DNA from: Bacteroidota bacterium
GTDB lineage: Bacteria > Bacteroidota > Bacteroidia > UKL13-3
Assembly (NCBI GenBank): GCA_947457395.1
Contig: CANGVA010000017.1
Span: 1 to 46,315 of the forward strand
Direction: 5' to 3'
DNA length: 46,315 nt
In this document: piece after piece, positions 13,503 through 19,535 of the stretch
Layout of the letters: each line of letters starts with the position of its first letter
Position numbering within the stretch: position 1 is the stretch's first letter
The notes under the pieces: model-generated
Databases searched by the model: none
What the model was told of the DNA's origin: nothing
Seen by the model: only the letters and a program-made list of their open reading frames with translations
Program-made: the position numbers and the translations under genes

Positions 13503-14135
13503 CTACAGACGCCTGATAACAGGCAATGAATCTATACTCTTAACGCGTGAAACAAGTTGCCCTTGGTTAAAATAAAAAAAACGACCTGCTTTTTGAGCTG
13601 TATGCTTATCTACCATTAGGTCCTTTAAAAACCTCTTTATATAAGTCCTTGTAAAATTTGATTGATAATATTTGGTATCGATACCAACTATTGGCCGTTT
13701 AAGTTTATTTGAATGAAGCATACGGGAGCAATCATAATACTCAGCAACAACAACCAACTCAACAGAAGCTTTAGCGCATTTTTGCTGAAGCAAATCCAAC
13801 GACTCACAATACTTGGATTTACATTTTGGCGACCATATATAAACAATGGCATGCTGATACTTTGTAATATGTTGCTTTACATCATTGCCATTACCAATCA
13901 TTAACTTATTTACACGGAACGTATCAATTAGTAAATTTTGACCCATATTCGTTTCAATTGACCAATCAAATAAATCAGGGCATATTTTTTTTGATTGAAC
14001 ATAATAAGAAGTAAGGCCCTGCAACGTACCATTTACCTTTATTAGACCGCATGAATTAGCGATGCAAAAGTAGATTACTAAAACAAGTGAAAGGCAAATT
14101 GAGCTTTTACTAAATCTTAAACCAATAAATAACAT
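13503..14135 (-). CDS. Putative lipoprotein with thioredoxin-like features, hypothetical
   Basis: A protein of 210 residues. The N-terminus has a hydrophobic segment ending in IANSC (Cys29), an acceptable Bacteroidota lipobox. The middle has AIVYIWSPKCKSKYCESLDLL followed by a VELVVVAEYYD strand. This resembles the strand, active-site helix and strand of a thioredoxin fold, but the cysteines are spaced C-x4-C rather than C-x2-C, so redox activity is doubtful. It is the last gene of the island array, and a 230-bp repeat element ends 52 bp upstream of its ATG. Function unknown; an orphan immunity protein or a stress lipoprotein are both possible. Confidence 0.55.
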   Translation of the reverse strand: MLFIGLRFSKSSICLSLVLVIYFCIANSCGLIKVNGTLQGLTSYYVQSKKICPDLFDWSIETNMGQNLLIDTFRVNKLMIGNGNDVKQHITKYQHAIVYIWSPKCKSKYCESLDLLQQKCAKASVELVVVAEYYDCSRMLHSNKLKRPIVGIDTKYYQSNFTRTYIKRFLKDLMVDKHTAQKAGRFFYFNQGQLVSRVKSIDSLPVIRRL

Positions 14136-14187
14136 AATAACTGTAATTTTATTACTTGAATTGTAGCAAAGGATAGTGAAATAAATG

Positions 14188-14417
14188 CCCCCAGATGCCG
14201 CGCGAATCTTTCGTGTGGCTTTTTAACTTCAAGACGAATGTCTTTAAAATGCATATGTATTTTTATTGCCTAAACAATGATACATAAAATATCTCACGGC
14301 AACAGAAATGTTTTGCTGCTTATAAAAGCTAATCTTCGTTTTGTGTCATTAAGAAGTATCATGTATAAATGATTGAATTTGTTATTTAATACTATACTAG
14401 TTACCACGCGAAAGATT
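14188..14417. repeat. 230-bp repeat element A, copy 1 (REP-ended, MITE/BIME-like)
   Basis: Nearly identical to 17252-17480: I count three substitutions plus one small change near the right end. The left end carries a hairpin (14197-14219), and AATCTTTCGTGTGG (14205-14218) is answered by the inverted copy CCACGCGAAAGATT at 14404-14417. The interior has no convincing reading frame but holds ATGATAC and GTATCAT as an inverted pair. The gap 14136-14489 consists mainly of this element and part of repeat B. It could be a non-autonomous element mobilised by the nearby RAYT, or a structured RNA. Confidence 0.8.
14197..14219. repeat. REP-like palindrome at left end of repeat A copy 1
   Basis: GCCGCGCGA and TCGTGTGGC pair over 9 positions (two as G-U in RNA) around a 5-base loop. 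It shares arms with the palindromes at 15178-15200, 15841-15864 and 17261-17283. Confidence 0.7.
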
Positions 14418-14445
14418 AGCTACGCTGTCCTGCGTTTCACGCGGT

Positions 14446-14550
14446 AGCGGGGGCGATGCAATCGCGTGGCAGCGGAGAGGCTATTGAAATTATTTGGTTT
14501 CATGGTACCACTTGTATTCTTTGTATCCATATCCTTTGTACTTTTTATTT
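14446..14550. repeat. 105-bp direct repeat B, copy 1
   Basis: Identical to 16553-16657 except for one base seen (GCGTGG versus GCGCGG). It begins with a GC-rich palindrome (GCGATGCAATCGC) and then contains the last ~20 codons and the stop of the neighbouring secreted-protein gene. The two copies are exactly 2107 bp apart in the same orientation. Confidence 0.85.
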
Positions 14551-15104
14551 TTATTTAGTTTAAGCTTGTTGATATTGATTTTCTTATTCACTTTGAATAG
14601 AAAAAACCGGTATTTTTTATAATGTAATATACCATTCTCCGAATCATAAACCGGCTCTTTAAATCCGCAATTATGAAAATGCAATACATCCAAACCACAG
14701 TTTTGTTGCTTCCATAATACCACTCGCAATGATGCAGGATTGAATGTGCCATCTATGGATTTCATGATATAAATATTTTGTTGCCTAAAATAAACGAGAT
14801 AATGATTTCGAAAATCATAAAGTAAGTAACCTAATTTAGTAGATGTATTGGCCTTATAGAATAAAAAAGTATAATGGTCATCCATTTGTACCACATTACT
14901 GTCATTAAAATGGCTTTCAATACCATACTTAATTTTATAGTATTTTAAGTAAACTAAATAACCCACACCATATTTTATATGTAGGTTTGAGTCTGTGAAT
15001 TCAACCCTTGAGGAATCAACCAATGTTTCTAACTTAACCATACGCTGAGCATACAACCCATTGAGAATAAAACTTGATAGTATTATAAAGAAGATTGATT
15101 TCAT
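14490..15104 (-). CDS. Secreted hypothetical protein of the island array
   Basis: A protein of 204 residues from the ATG at 15104. That start gives a clean signal peptide (MKSIFFIILSSFILNGLYAQ). The frame stays open upstream to 15236, but that part would run through a REP palindrome and the end of the RAYT gene and is rejected. The mature protein is rich in Tyr, Lys and Phe (for example YLVYLKYYKIKYG and KYKGYGYKEYKWYHETK), with no domain I recognise. Its last ~20 codons lie in repeat B and are found again at 16597-16657, so a homologous gene once existed there. Function unknown. Confidence 0.6.
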   Translation of the reverse strand: MKSIFFIILSSFILNGLYAQRMVKLETLVDSSRVEFTDSNLHIKYGVGYLVYLKYYKIKYGIESHFNDSNVVQMDDHYTFLFYKANTSTKLGYLLYDFRNHYLVYFRQQNIYIMKSIDGTFNPASLRVVLWKQQNCGLDVLHFHNCGFKEPVYDSENGILHYKKYRFFLFKVNKKININKLKLNKNKKYKGYGYKEYKWYHETK

Positions 15105-15177
15105 CGGGCAAAATAACTTAAATGTAAAAACTCTCTTGCATACATTTGCAAACTTAAGAAACCAGGTACACCCCGCT

Positions 15178-15200
15178 ACCGCGCGATTGTATCGCGTGGT
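15178..15200. repeat. REP-like palindrome downstream of the RAYT gene
   Basis: CCGCGCGAT and ATCGCGTGG pair around a 3-base loop (one G-U), with an extra A/T pair outside. It lies 23 bp past the RAYT stop codon and is an inverted partner of the palindrome at 15841-15864 on the other side of the gene. Confidence 0.75.
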
Positions 15201-15222
15201 TTTTACAATATTAACAATTACA

Positions 15223-15795
15223 TCAAAATCTAACATTTACTTGGTCAATTACTTCAATACCTTTCAGCAAACCTTGTCCACCGGCATAATCTATTGCACT
15301 ACTATACAAATATTCGTGTGCTGCAAAAACATACCCTTCCTCAACCGGATTGTTATGAATATAATTTACCTTTTGCATTATTACAGCATTGCTCCACAAT
15401 TCAATTGGTTTATTATCGTGTCGCCAAAATTGATGTTTTGTTGTGTTGGAACTGGACCTTCCTGCATTAGTAAATTGTTCAATTAACCATTCTCTTCTGC
15501 TCTCTTTGGGGTTCGTTCTTATTGCCTCTATCAATCTTTTACTCGTAAATCGTTTAATATCTCCTAGTACTAATTCGGGTTTATGAGGTTCTGATACACC
15601 AAAAATTAAATGAACATGATTGGTCATGATACACCAAGCAAAGACCCTCATCGTTTTATGCTCTATGGCATATCGTAAACTATCGAGCACTATATTTTTA
15701 TATTCGTTTCGAGTAAACACGTCTATCCAATTTACTACTGCAAAACTTACAAAGTATAAACCTTCTGGATTATGAAATTTATAGTTTCTAGACAT
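15223..15795 (-). CDS. REP-associated tyrosine transposase (RAYT, Y1/IS200-like)
   Basis: A protein of 190 residues of the IS200/Y1 transposase superfamily. The HUH motif is MTNHVHLIFG (His60 and His62), and the candidate nucleophile is Tyr145 in VNYIHNNPVEEGYV, followed by YLYSSAIDYAGG; this combination is the RAYT signature. RAYTs bind and process single-stranded REP palindromes. Here the gene is bracketed by two GC-rich palindromes with the same arms (15178-15200 and 15841-15864), and related palindromes recur elsewhere in the island, so gene and repeats fit as one REP system. Length and motifs look intact. It is the only transposase-type gene in the window. Confidence 0.9.
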   Translation of the reverse strand: MSRNYKFHNPEGLYFVSFAVVNWIDVFTRNEYKNIVLDSLRYAIEHKTMRVFAWCIMTNHVHLIFGVSEPHKPELVLGDIKRFTSKRLIEAIRTNPKESRREWLIEQFTNAGRSSSNTTKHQFWRHDNKPIELWSNAVIMQKVNYIHNNPVEEGYVFAAHEYLYSSAIDYAGGQGLLKGIEVIDQVNVRF

Positions 15796-15840
15796 GGTAG
15801 ATTAATCTTCAACTGCAATTTAAGATTTAGGATGCGAAAT

Positions 15841-15864
15841 ACCACGCGACAGGAGTCGCGCGGC
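15841..15864. repeat. REP-like palindrome upstream of the RAYT gene
   Basis: CCACGCGA (15842-15849) and TCGCGCGG (15856-15863) pair with one G-U around a short loop, followed by CAGCAGTAGCGG. It lies 46 bp upstream of the RAYT ATG. Its arms are the same sequence family as at 15178-15200 and in repeat A. Confidence 0.75.
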
Positions 15865-15888
15865 AGCAGTAGCGGAGTAAAGCTATAA

Positions 15889-16431
15889 TTAGTCTTTAAG
15901 ACGTTTTAGCTTCTGTAGAATGTCGTTCTCAAATGTACTCTTAGCTTTTCTTTTTTGAGCTGACGTTAATTGCCAATTCATAAAATTAGCTGACGCTTTA
16001 TCCATGAATAATACATTCATAACACATAAATCTGACGTAAATCCATTGAACCACGAATATTTATTCGCGATATCAACTCTGAACACCATATCTCCATCTG
16101 TTGACTTTACCCACCAATACGTCTTCTCATAATCTTTTGCTGTATTTGTTATCTTAAAAATGCATCGACAGGTATTACAATTTGAACTATCAATGAATGC
16201 TACTTTTTCAATTTTTAAAGGAGTATTTTTCTCAATAATTGCCACAGTTTGTTCATCCACTCTGTTTTCAGGGTGCTTTAACCAAAACTTATCCAACAGC
16301 TGAATAGTTTCTGCTTCGTTTACATACAGCCTACTATAACATCGCAATACTGTATCGCCTGCAGAGAGACAACTTATAAAGCCTAAACACAAAATCAAAT
16401 AAAAAGCTATAAGTATATGGGTTGATTTCAT
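15889..16431 (-). CDS. Small putative lipoprotein of the island array, hypothetical
   Basis: A protein of 180 residues with a hydrophobic N-terminus ending in LGFISCLSAG, so Cys21 could be lipidated; otherwise it is a secreted protein. The body has a Cys pair (SSNCNTCRCIF), a YWWVKSTDGDMVFRVDI strand pair, then SWFNGFTSDLCVM, and ends in a basic helix (SAQKRKAKSTFENDILQKLKRLKD). No family is recognised. Size, N-terminus and the basic Phe-Glu C-terminal helix resemble the neighbour at 16652-17197, so the two may be distant paralogues. It is adjacent to the RAYT promoter side. Orphan immunity protein is one possible role, inferred from context only. Confidence 0.55.
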   Translation of the reverse strand: MKSTHILIAFYLILCLGFISCLSAGDTVLRCYSRLYVNEAETIQLLDKFWLKHPENRVDEQTVAIIEKNTPLKIEKVAFIDSSNCNTCRCIFKITNTAKDYEKTYWWVKSTDGDMVFRVDIANKYSWFNGFTSDLCVMNVLFMDKASANFMNWQLTSAQKRKAKSTFENDILQKLKRLKD

Positions 16432-16552
16432 ACGATTATATTATCTTAACCTACTAAGACCATAAATTGCTGTTGGAATAAGCAATGCTTTTGGCAAAGC
16501 AGCTGCGAAGGTATTAGCTACGCTAAACTTCCCCGAGCAATCAGGGCGCGGC

Positions 16553-16657
16553 AGCGGGGGCGATGCAATCGCGCGGCAGCGGAGAGGCTATTGAAATTAT
16601 TTGGTTTCATGGTACCACTTGTATTCTTTGTATCCATATCCTTTGTACTTTTTATTT
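16553..16657. repeat. 105-bp direct repeat B, copy 2 (with gene-end remnant)
   Basis: Second copy of the 14446-14550 repeat. On the minus strand bases 16657-16597 encode the same peptide end (...KYKGYGYKEYKWYHETK and stop) as the intact gene at 14490-15104, but here it has no body upstream: the gene at 16652-17197 ends just at the junction. Confidence 0.85.
16597..16657 (-). pseudogene. 3'-end remnant of a homologue of the 14490-15104 gene
   Basis: About 19 codons plus a stop, matching the C-terminus of the intact gene exactly at protein level. The upstream body is missing and is replaced by a different lipoprotein gene whose stop codon falls at 16652. This marks a recombination or replacement point in the array. 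Confidence 0.65.
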
Positions 16658-17197
16658 ATAAATATTCGTGTCTCTAAAGTATGGTTTTAATAATGGTAGT
16701 AATTCCTCGTTGAATTTTTCTAGATATCGTTTTCTAAGGATTTTATATTTTTTTTGATTATCATAAAAAGTATAATCAGAAGTTAATTTGGTATTCAGTG
16801 AATCGTAAATAAAAAATTCGCTAACTGCAAATCCTGACGAAAATAATCCAATTTTATAGATGGTAGTTTTATCCGGTGTAAACATATACCATGAATATAA
16901 ATTTGTCCAGTTGATAACAGGATAAAGAGGATGGATTTTATTACGCTGAAACACTTGTTGCTCTTCAGTAACAGAGAAGTAAAAATCTGTGTTTTTAAAA
17001 TAATTATTAGCAAAAGTACTATCAATCATTAACTCTATATGGTCGTTTTTAAATTTCTCCATTATAGGTATGATATATCCTACTTCTAGAGAATAAACAT
17101 TGGGTATCCTAACTTTGAAGACGGTTGTATACCCTGAAGTATAACATGAAACATTTATACAGCTAAATGTAACTAAAATAATTAATGTATTTTTCAT
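16652..17197 (-). CDS. Small secreted protein or lipoprotein of the island array, hypothetical
   Basis: A protein of 181 residues with an N-terminal signal segment (MKNTLIILVTFSCINVSCYTSG) and possible lipidation at Cys18. The remainder is rich in Tyr, Phe and Lys, has paired strands such as NLYSWYMFTPDKTTIYKIGL, and ends with a basic helix (KKYKILRKRYLEKFNEELLPLLKPY). No known family is recognised. Repeat A copy 2 ends 54 bp upstream of the ATG, the same arrangement as for the gene at 13503-14135. The stop codon coincides with the edge of repeat B copy 2. Confidence 0.55.
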   Translation of the reverse strand: MKNTLIILVTFSCINVSCYTSGYTTVFKVRIPNVYSLEVGYIIPIMEKFKNDHIELMIDSTFANNYFKNTDFYFSVTEEQQVFQRNKIHPLYPVINWTNLYSWYMFTPDKTTIYKIGLFSSGFAVSEFFIYDSLNTKLTSDYTFYDNQKKYKILRKRYLEKFNEELLPLLKPYFRDTNIYK

Positions 17198-17251
17198 GTT
17201 AATACGGTTATCTGATCATCCAACCATAGGGTATTTTTTGTGCATTTATAC

Positions 17252-17480
17252 CCCCCAGATGCCGCGCTAATCTTTCGCGTGGCTTTTTAACTTCAAGACG
17301 AATGTCTTTAAAATGCATATGTATTTTTATTGCCTAAACAATGATACATAAAATATCTCACGGCAACAGAAATGTTTTGCTGCTTATAAAAGCTAATCTT
17401 TGTTTTGTGTCATTAAGAAGTATCATGTATAAATGATTGAATTTGTTATTTAATACTATACTAGTGCCACGCGAAAGATT
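17252..17480. repeat. 230-bp repeat element A, copy 2
   Basis: Copy of 14188-14417 in the same orientation, 3063 bp away. Here the inverted ends are perfect: AATCTTTCGCGTGG at 17269-17282 and CCACGCGAAAGATT at 17467-17480. It fills most of the gap 17198-17523 between the SH3 lipoprotein and the next gene; I see no gene in that gap. Confidence 0.8.
17261..17283. repeat. REP-like palindrome at left end of repeat A copy 2
   Basis: GCCGCGCTA...TCGCGTGGC hairpin, the counterpart of 14197-14219 with two base differences. Confidence 0.65.
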
Positions 17481-17523
17481 CTCGCAGTAGCGTGGGCAGC
17501 AGCGTGGGCCGGGCTTTAAATGT

Positions 17524-18240
17524 TTAATCACTTTTTCTGTCTTTTGCGATTTTCTGCTTTATCTCAGTTGGCATCGCAGAGTATTTTAATATTCGGCTTT
17601 TGTGTAGGTAGCCTACAATTGCTTTTATATCGTCTTTTCTTGATACCTGCCACCAATCGCTATTACTATTCGGAACATAATAAAAAAATTCTTTGTCTGT
17701 AATCTTGTCAATGACCTTTGCCTCGTTTGAAGGTGCTTCTCTTACATTTGTATATCCATCTTTGTCATTAATAATTCCTACTAACAATAGTTTCTGTACA
17801 GGGGATTCACTGCGCACCTTACTACCCAAAAGAATTCCATCGCTCAACCAAATCTTATCTATTATACTCGGTATATCAGACCCTAGTTCAAAATAAATTC
17901 TATTGTTTTTTGAAAATGATAGTTCTAAATAAACAGCAAATTGTAGCCCTTCATCAGATACTTCGGCTTTATCAATGATTCTATATATTTCATCTTTGGG
18001 CAATCCACCTGTAAGCTCATTCAAATATGGTTTTATTTTTTTGAACATTCCTGAATCAAGAGAAGCGTCCCAATACACTTCTGAGAGTATTTGATTAGAG
18101 GGCTGTTGGTTATATAATAATGCATAAAAATCCTTAACAATACTCTTATAATCCTCTTGATGCTGTTTTACCCAATCGTTTTCCTGAGGTTGGGAGCAAG
18201 CTAAAAATGGAATACACAGGAAGAAAAGTATAATTGTCAT
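17524..18240 (-). CDS. SH3-domain lipoprotein, candidate immunity protein for the Rhs toxin
   Basis: A protein of 238 residues with a lipoprotein signal peptide (MTIILFFLCIPFLACSQ, lipidated Cys15). Residues ~20-145 are an unrecognised domain. Residues ~155-220 are a bacterial SH3 (SH3_3-type) domain: DGYTNVREAPSNEAKVIDKI, DWWQVSR and VGYLHKSRIL. Such domains often bind cell-wall peptides. The gene starts 12 bp after the Rhs toxin-tip gene, on the same strand, the usual position of a cognate immunity gene. A periplasmic lipoprotein is the expected location for immunity against a peptidoglycan-attacking toxin. The immunity role is inferred from position, location and domain type; it could also be an unrelated envelope lipoprotein. 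Confidence 0.7.
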   Translation of the reverse strand: MTIILFFLCIPFLACSQPQENDWVKQHQEDYKSIVKDFYALLYNQQPSNQILSEVYWDASLDSGMFKKIKPYLNELTGGLPKDEIYRIIDKAEVSDEGLQFAVYLELSFSKNNRIYFELGSDIPSIIDKIWLSDGILLGSKVRSESPVQKLLLVGIINDKDGYTNVREAPSNEAKVIDKITDKEFFYYVPNSNSDWWQVSRKDDIKAIVGYLHKSRILKYSAMPTEIKQKIAKDRKSD

Positions 18241-18252
18241 AGCTTGAATTAT

Positions 18253-19404
18253 TTATGGTTTAGGATAAATTACATGAACAGGCATCGTGCCATACGTGTT
18301 GTAGTAATTACTATACCTGTTATAGAAATCCAACAAATTTGCTCTGTCTCCTCTTAATCCAATACAACCTTCGGTACCTGGCGATCTAGCAGGGTGGATA
18401 CGAATTAAACCTGTTTCCCTACCTCTTAATGGGTCATATCTGTCAGGTCCTAACGTAACTCTAAAACTTACATCATTCAAACTATATTTAGGGTGAGCTT
18501 GAGAGTTCAAGTAACCTGTATTCCAAGTACCTTCGGGGATAGTGTAAGATTTAATGTTACTCGCACCACTTACAGCCGGATATGTTGCAACTGCTTCACC
18601 GGATGAATTATACCAAATTAAATTGCCCTGGGTTTTATATGCATTTACAAACTTGGCTTCATACTGTAAATAATCCCCCCCACTACCTTGGGCCCCACCT
18701 CCACCTTTACCAAAGCCACCCATGCCCGCTACGCCTTGGCCACCAACGATGCCCCCCTGCAACCAAGTATAATATGCGCTATAGGATAATTCTATTGGCT
18801 TTACTATTTTTTCTCCTACTATAACAACATCAGCAGATTGTTTCGTTACTTCAATAACATCCTTCTTATGAACAACAGTTATTGGATCTCTATCTTTAGG
18901 TCCACCTGCATTACCTGTTGGGTCAATCCATTTTAACGGGTTATTCCAAACATAGCTATACCTATTGTAGTGTTGCGCATTATATGGATCTACTACATAC
19001 TTATCCGGCCCCAGCATGCGTGCAATATAGGGGTCATACAAGCGGGCATTCATATTAATAAGACCAAACTCATCCAAATGCTCATGGCCGGTAAAACCAC
19101 GGGTTAGTATTGTGGGGTTGGTTATGTTGGCGTAGCTCCAGTTGGCAGTGTTGCGCCTGCGGCCCCAGGCATCAAAGCTATAGCTTTCTGCAATAACACC
19201 GCTGGGTTGTATCAATTCCAATACACTGCCCAAATTATCGGTAAATGTGTAATACAGCTGCTGTGTGTTTCCTGTGCGTATCATTACTGCAAATAAGCCG
19301 TTTTCTGCACCAATATAATATATTTCTTTGGTTTGGCCATTGGCAATAATTCTTTCATAATTACCTAAATAATAAGTTTCGCTTTGTGTTGTGGGGGTGC
19401 TATA
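18253..19404 (-). CDS. 5'-truncated Rhs core with C-terminal L,D-transpeptidase-like (Tlde1/DUF2778-like) toxin domain
   Basis: The open frame runs from just after a TAA at 19405-19407 to the stop at 18253. The first 40 codons (SETYYLGNYERI, EIYYIGAENG) are Rhs/YD repeat sequence without a start codon; the first Met is at 19284. Next come the Rhs-associated core (GFTGHEHLDEFGLINMNARLYDPYIARMLGPD) and YSYVWNNPLKWIDPTG, after which Rhs proteins switch to a variable toxin. The linker is Gly-rich (GGVAGMGG-like). The last ~120 residues contain LIWYNSSGEAVATYPAVSG, YTIPEGTW and IRIHPARSPGTEGCIGL, with His297 and Cys307 counted from the Met at 19284. This order resembles Tlde1/DUF2778 and L,D-transpeptidase folds, which attack peptide stems of peptidoglycan. 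Most of the Rhs shell is missing, so this is a displaced orphan tip or a decayed gene. The lipoprotein gene downstream is its likely immunity partner. Confidence 0.8.
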   Translation of the reverse strand, partial: YSTPTTQSETYYLGNYERIIANGQTKEIYYIGAENGLFAVMIRTGNTQQLYYTFTDNLGSVLELIQPSGVIAESYSFDAWGRRRNTANWSYANITNPTILTRGFTGHEHLDEFGLINMNARLYDPYIARMLGPDKYVVDPYNAQHYNRYSYVWNNPLKWIDPTGNAGGPKDRDPITVVHKKDVIEVTKQSADVVIVGEKIVKPIELSYSAYYTWLQGGIVGGQGVAGMGGFGKGGGGAQGSGGDYLQYEAKFVNAYKTQGNLIWYNSSGEAVATYPAVSGASNIKSYTIPEGTWNTGYLNSQAHPKYSLNDVSFRVTLGPDRYDPLRGRETGLIRIHPARSPGTEGCIGLRGDRANLLDFYNRYSNYYNTYGTMPVHVIYPKP

Positions 19405-19535
19405 TTAAACTTTAATTAGCCATGCAAAAAATTCCGACACCATTTGTTAACAGTGGGAAATAAGTATAATAGTATTTAGTTTTTACCAAAATTTAATACT
19501 TGTGTTTTACTTCCGCCATATCCTAACTTGCACCC

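Follow-up and report, generated by a model that had tools for sequence, protein, structure and literature searches.

In the window, that is the whole stretch of 46,315 nucleotides analysed here (contig CANGVA010000017.1 of the Bacteroidota bacterium assembly GCA_947457395.1), the open frame at 18253-19404 on the minus strand is a displaced (orphan) Rhs tip. It is probably a C-terminal cassette composed of a core end of about 155 residues, a linker and a toxin domain of predicted L,D-transpeptidase (LDT) fold, followed by a likely immunity lipoprotein, and this grading includes the mode of action proposed below. A previous sequence-only reading had pointed out the Rhs core end and the LDT-like tip and had missed both the displaced nature of the gene, which has no delivery part, and the candidate immunity gene directly behind it.

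Reading frame and Rhs core fragment

The frame, 383 codons long, opens directly after one stop and closes with that at 18253. The ATG at 19284 is the first start codon in frame and gives a protein of 343 amino acids. The parts of the frame are:

18253-19404, minus strand: whole frame, with Rhs core fragment, Gly-rich linker and predicted LDT-fold tip (from the reading frame)
18910-19371, minus strand: Rhs core fragment, ending NPLKWIDPTG (TIGR03696, 62 bits; G+C 45%)
18661-18909, minus strand: core-tip linker, Gly-rich at its end (from the sequence)
18253-18660, minus strand: predicted L,D-transpeptidase-fold C-terminal domain, the putative toxin tip (PF03734, 32.0 bits over the last 141 residues; fold comparison; composition)
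18394-18396, minus strand: encodes His297 (numbered from the Met at 19284), the predicted catalytic-site residue, identical in all 16 aligned sequences
18364-18366, minus strand: encodes Cys307 (numbered likewise), the predicted nucleophile, also identical in all 16 aligned sequences

The match to Rhs_assc_core (TIGR03696) reaches 59-62 bits against a cut-off of 32.5 and covers a fragment of only about 155 residues, which corresponds to residues 1649-1802 of a 2076-residue Rhs protein from the same family, with 45% identity. Since the TIGR03696 and PF03734 scores both exceed their cut-offs, the match of this frame is more than chance. An LD-peptidase-type domain thus lies C-terminal to RHS sequence in a single frame, as in the Tox-LD-peptidase toxins. 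The observation that an Rhs core end is followed by such a C-terminal domain is confirmed: WIDPTG, LIWYNSSGEAVATYP, YTIPEGTW and IRIHPARSPGTEGCIGL are all present, and the residue numbers given for His297 and Cys307 are correct when counted from the Met at 19284 (His337 and Cys347 in the 383-codon frame). GC3 is 49% for the core part against 29% for both the tip and the next gene, and such a step inside an ORF is expected if core end and tip have separate histories.

The predicted L,D-transpeptidase-fold tip

YkuD (PF03734) is matched by the whole protein with 28.4 bits and by its last 141 residues with 32.0 bits (E 2.2e-7), the cut-off being 23.4. The tip contains the LDT motif of a conserved His followed by [S/T]-x-G-C (HPARSPGTEGC), and across 16 aligned sequences no variation occurs at Gly35, Ile-His-Pro, Gly-Thr and Gly-Cys-Ile-Gly, the GT-x-GCIG strand included. 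The His-to-Cys spacing is nine residues (His-x9-Cys), and the one given for Tlde1a is longer (PMC9638812). A standalone YkuD protein (38.6 bits) with two SH3 domains has the His-x9-Cys spacing too, and its PLG turn, His and GC strand line up with those of the tip in a profile comparison.

The structure model used was made from the 16-sequence alignment, which had been gathered partly with the His/Cys motif itself, and is of moderate confidence (pLDDT 64, pTM 0.60); an earlier model from five sequences had a pLDDT of 37. In the structural alignment of the predicted model, solved L,D-transpeptidases and their close kin fill the first 49 rows (Z 7.2-9.7), and the next row, an unrelated chain, stands at Z 3.0. 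By this alignment the His and Cys of the tip would lie near each other. The best fold matches are Bacillus subtilis YkuD and mycobacterial Ldts (Z 9.7), Csd6/Pgp2 being also found, and Tlde1a (7uma), with Z 8.6, fits no better than these ordinary L,D-transpeptidases. Among the Foldseek matches to the PDB the first seven rows are L,D-transpeptidases or their kin, none of them below E 0.001, and in a viral structure library the model matches phage L,D-carboxypeptidase and DUF5675-type proteins.

An LDT fold of the tip is supported by its profile match, by the conserved motifs and by the predicted structure. The sequence-only reading had proposed a Tlde1/DUF2778-like member of this fold, and its two halves fared differently: the LDT fold stands, with YkuD above its cut-off, the motifs conserved and 49 LDT-type rows before any unrelated chain, whereas the Tlde1/DUF2778 affiliation finds no support by profile, a search of the tip against PF10908 having given no match at E up to 1. 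That the domain is instead a binding or structural domain of another fold, resembling L,D-transpeptidases in motif only, could draw on the moderate confidence of the model and on Foldseek E-values above 0.001. However, the Pfam score, the clear separation of the 49 LDT-type rows from the remainder and the fact that relatives of the tip independently match YkuD, and weakly Tlde1_dom, make this extremely improbable.

When the tip or alignments of it were searched against PDB sequences, nothing came up beyond antibody chains, a capsid vertex protein, and FGF and designed trefoils with a shared LRI-x-PDG stretch; these were judged to be chance matches. Padloc and PHROGs assigned no family to the tip.

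Relatives of the tip

Relatives were gathered by one scan of named genome contigs and by searches of sampled genomes. Related tips were found in Chryseobacterium and a few other Bacteroidota, where homologous tips follow Rhs cores. The tip alone as query matched 5 of 395 genomes of the class, a count that includes the window's own genome and matches that are not all true relatives, one of them falling in an unrelated TonB-type ORF. With a profile as query, 7 of the 246 genomes of the family holding genome G054 were matched. A search for PF10908 in the relatives found nothing, a result of little weight since control genomes were equally silent.

Wherever such related tips were examined, the gene that follows overlaps the tip or lies a few bases from it and encodes an exported protein. 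Most of these neighbours belong to one lipoprotein family, and intact short Rhs-tip frames recur with their lipoproteins in other genomes. An exported protein at this place is consistent with a toxin that acts in the periplasm.

The candidate immunity lipoprotein

The gene following the tip in the window is:

17524-18240, minus strand: candidate immunity gene, encoding a lipoprotein of 238 aa with a FLAC lipobox and, C-terminally, a bacterial SH3 domain (PF08239, E 1.7e-5)

This gene is intact and begins 12 bases after the stop codon of the tip. Its SH3 domain scores 25.4 bits, just under the cut-off of 27, and is also present in other exported proteins; no Pfam Imm family was matched by the lipoprotein. 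Membership in the family of the Chryseobacterium immunity-like lipoproteins found no support (hhalign probability 1%). Because the lipoprotein shows no relation to that family and its SH3 domain occurs elsewhere, we infer the immunity role from position and export, and on this basis it is likely to be the immunity protein of the tip.

The standalone YkuD protein mentioned above (L052 3310-4302) has two domains of the SH3_3 type, and one of them ranks among the nearest matches to the SH3 domain of the window lipoprotein. This fusion may possibly reflect a link between the SH3 domain and the transpeptidase substrate.

Absence of a carrier

The full-length Rhs protein of the same taxonomic family (genome G002) places SpvB, FG-GAP and RHS domains behind a Sec-type signal. 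When the window's genome, which is 99.96% complete, was searched for this carrier, only residues 1649-1802 of the 2076 were matched, and about 1,650 carrier residues are absent from the window gene. As only this part of the carrier is present, the gene has neither the N-terminal export region nor the Rhs shell of a full-length deliverable Rhs. What it does have is the make-up of an orphan Rhs tip, namely a core-end fragment, a putative toxin domain and an immunity-like gene, all without carrier.

No other Rhs core, carrier or YkuD (PF03734) domain was found in this genome, and the upstream DNA as far as recO contains no further Rhs sequence. The tip frame lacks a signal peptide, and the region before the ATG at 19284 yielded no promoter motif of the Bacteroidota type. 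The genome contains 90 T9SS sorting domains, and a search for the T6SS protein VipB (PF05943) found none, which leaves room for a very divergent T6SS. A plasmid search gave nothing. Capture of the tip from a transpeptidase of the organism itself was considered and rejected, since no other YkuD, as distinct from YkuD_2, was found in the genome.

A similar situation exists in a single-contig genome of the same family (G021), in which we found an array of orphan Rhs tips starting mid-core and no full-length Rhs. Several of these orphan tips contain internal stops. The array (L026, G021:C1:1898000-1916000) comprises several cassettes of Rhs core end, tip and immunity-like gene beside two transposase copies.

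The variable island

The cassette lies in an island that includes the following features:

13600-19516: variable island of about 5.9 kb, missing at the corresponding syntenic position of a same-genus genome (G001)
16652-17197, minus strand: exported/lipoprotein-like ORF (NVSC), possible orphan immunity gene (no family match)
15889-16431, minus strand: exported/lipoprotein-like ORF (FISC), possible orphan immunity gene (no convincing family match)
15223-15795, minus strand: REP-associated tyrosine transposase, RAYT (NF047646, 81.6 bits against a cut-off of 80)
14490-15236, minus strand: exported ORF whose real start is probably internal (tblastn to L026 16008-16235, 29% identity, E 1e-6)

In G001 the island is replaced by 1.9 kb of other genes. 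Its G+C content is lower (35% against 40%), and it holds several small exported proteins as well as two pairs of direct repeats, one of 214 bp (14188-14401 and 17252-17465, 99%) and one of 114 bp (14440-14553 and 16547-16660, 97%). The repeats of the second pair overlap the 3' ends of two different exported-protein genes, which suggests recombination between cassettes. Moreover, the ORF at 14490-15236 is homologous to a protein adjoining the orphan-tip array of G021. The island looks like a tip-and-immunity hotspot. REP-like inverted arms were observed near the RAYT gene.

At the left border, a 210-aa ORF (13503-14135) has the same last 31 residues as an otherwise different 122-aa ORF of a same-genus genome (L031 13371-13739). 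From this common end it follows that the border lies inside a gene and that a chimera was formed. This border, together with the missing carrier, signal peptide and promoter motif and the internal stops of several G021 tips, would fit a dead remnant, in which a full Rhs gene once stood here, lost its front and left the toxin and its neighbours to decay without function. Nevertheless the reading frame of the tip continues unbroken through the active-site motif, in which all invariant residues are kept, the gene 12 bases further on is intact, and intact short Rhs-tip frames with lipoproteins are found repeatedly in other genomes. We consider a dead remnant possible, if rather unlikely.

Proposed mode of action

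For the displaced cassette, which we favour, the following mechanism is proposed. Joined to a full-length Sec-exported Rhs carrier, the tip would be released into the periplasm of another cell. There its Cys may attack the peptidoglycan stem peptides at the bond that joins residues 3 and 4, a proposal made because of the established chemistry of L,D-transpeptidases and Tlde1a (PMC9638812). The attack would trim tetrapeptides, or lead to wrong amino-acid exchange or cross-links, and so upset wall growth, and the periplasm-anchored lipoprotein would block the toxin. In the window's genome the tip is presumably not deliverable as it stands, and the cassette is most likely a store or a remnant, retained chiefly because of its immunity gene or as material for later recombination. 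In Salmonella, orphan tips are usable after recombination with the main rhs gene (PMC3967940).

Orphan and main Rhs tips of Salmonella can also be expressed internally, where they act as toxin-antitoxin pairs (PMC7043789). By analogy, tip and lipoprotein might be expressed in their own cell, as an addiction pair or for remodelling of the own wall, and the ATG at 19284 and the fact that the tip is the sole YkuD match in the genome would agree with this. However, the tip lacks a signal peptide, the cytoplasm offers an L,D-transpeptidase no usual substrate, and a periplasmic lipoprotein would not meet a toxin there; a wall-building duty is further disfavoured by the absence of the tip from the same-genus genome G001. 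Such a self-acting module is therefore very unlikely.

A more far-reaching idea is that hotspot islands of this Bacteroidota family acquire and retain cassettes of orphan tip and immunity gene in genomes that have no full-length Rhs, and that these cassettes act as stores of immunity or are donated from strain to strain. The present cassette would then pair an LDT toxin with an immunity lipoprotein of a new type, its SH3 domain shielding the stem peptides. We regard this as speculative and clearly improbable.

Relation to known systems

The pairing of a Bacteroidota Rhs core with an LDT-type tip had been thought not to be well described. This was mistaken, as the Tox-LD-peptidase listed by Zhang et al. 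(2012; PMC3482391) occurs in RHS-repeat proteins, those of Bacteroidetes included, and is linked to immunity genes, and the window tip therefore belongs to a kind already catalogued. Tox-LD-peptidase has conserved H, S/T and C, and Imm16 and the mostly alpha-helical Imm57 are listed by the same paper (PMC3482391). The window gene shares with it the LD-peptidase domain in an RHS context, the three conserved residues and the occurrence in Bacteroidetes, and has a candidate for the linked immunity gene; it differs in being a displaced tip only and in having as neighbour an SH3 lipoprotein that matches no Pfam Imm family. Less usual here are this lipoprotein partner and the persistence of tips in genomes without detectable carrier.

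The type VI effector Tlde1 (PF10908/DUF2778) resembles the tip in its LDT fold (Z 8.6 for Tlde1a, 7uma), in the Cys strand [S/T]-x-G-C-hydrophobic, in the predicted periplasmic peptidoglycan target and in a linked immunity gene, here a candidate. In contrast, the window tip has no PF10908 match, carries His and Cys nine residues apart where Tlde1 has a longer spacing, and is Rhs-borne in a genome in which no VipB was found. To the YkuD catalytic domain (PF03734) it is similar by a score above the curated cut-off, by His and Cys in the expected order and by the best fold match (Z 9.7), whereas it is attached to an Rhs core end, is linked to a lipoprotein gene and has no signal peptide of its own.

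In architecture the cassette can be likened to the orphan Rhs toxin of Salmonella Typhimurium LT2 (Koskiniemi et al. 2014, PMC3967940), which is also an Rhs fragment without export signals that ends in a toxin tip with an adjacent immunity gene. There the main rhs lies upstream for recombination, while no full-length Rhs was found in the window's genome. The cassette is a further, well-supported Bacteroidota case of an Rhs tip predicted to attack the wall, accompanied by what is probably a periplasmic immunity protein. It also shows that near-complete genomes can contain such tips with no carrier found, which raises the question of what keeps them there.

Shorter relatives exist on viral contigs (IMG/VR loci L057-L072) with the signature IHPDG-x-x-PGT-x-GCIG; one DNA-pattern scan of viral contigs gave no match. 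Several of these relatives match YkuD, or weakly Tlde1_dom (PF10908) below its cut-off. The phage LDT-like domains share the conserved core motifs of the tip and differ from it in being mostly short and standalone, or parts of larger phage proteins, no Rhs core being seen with them. One viral protein, possibly of the phage baseplate (L058 166-1272, minus strand), carries the IHPDG/GT-x-GCIG domain internally.
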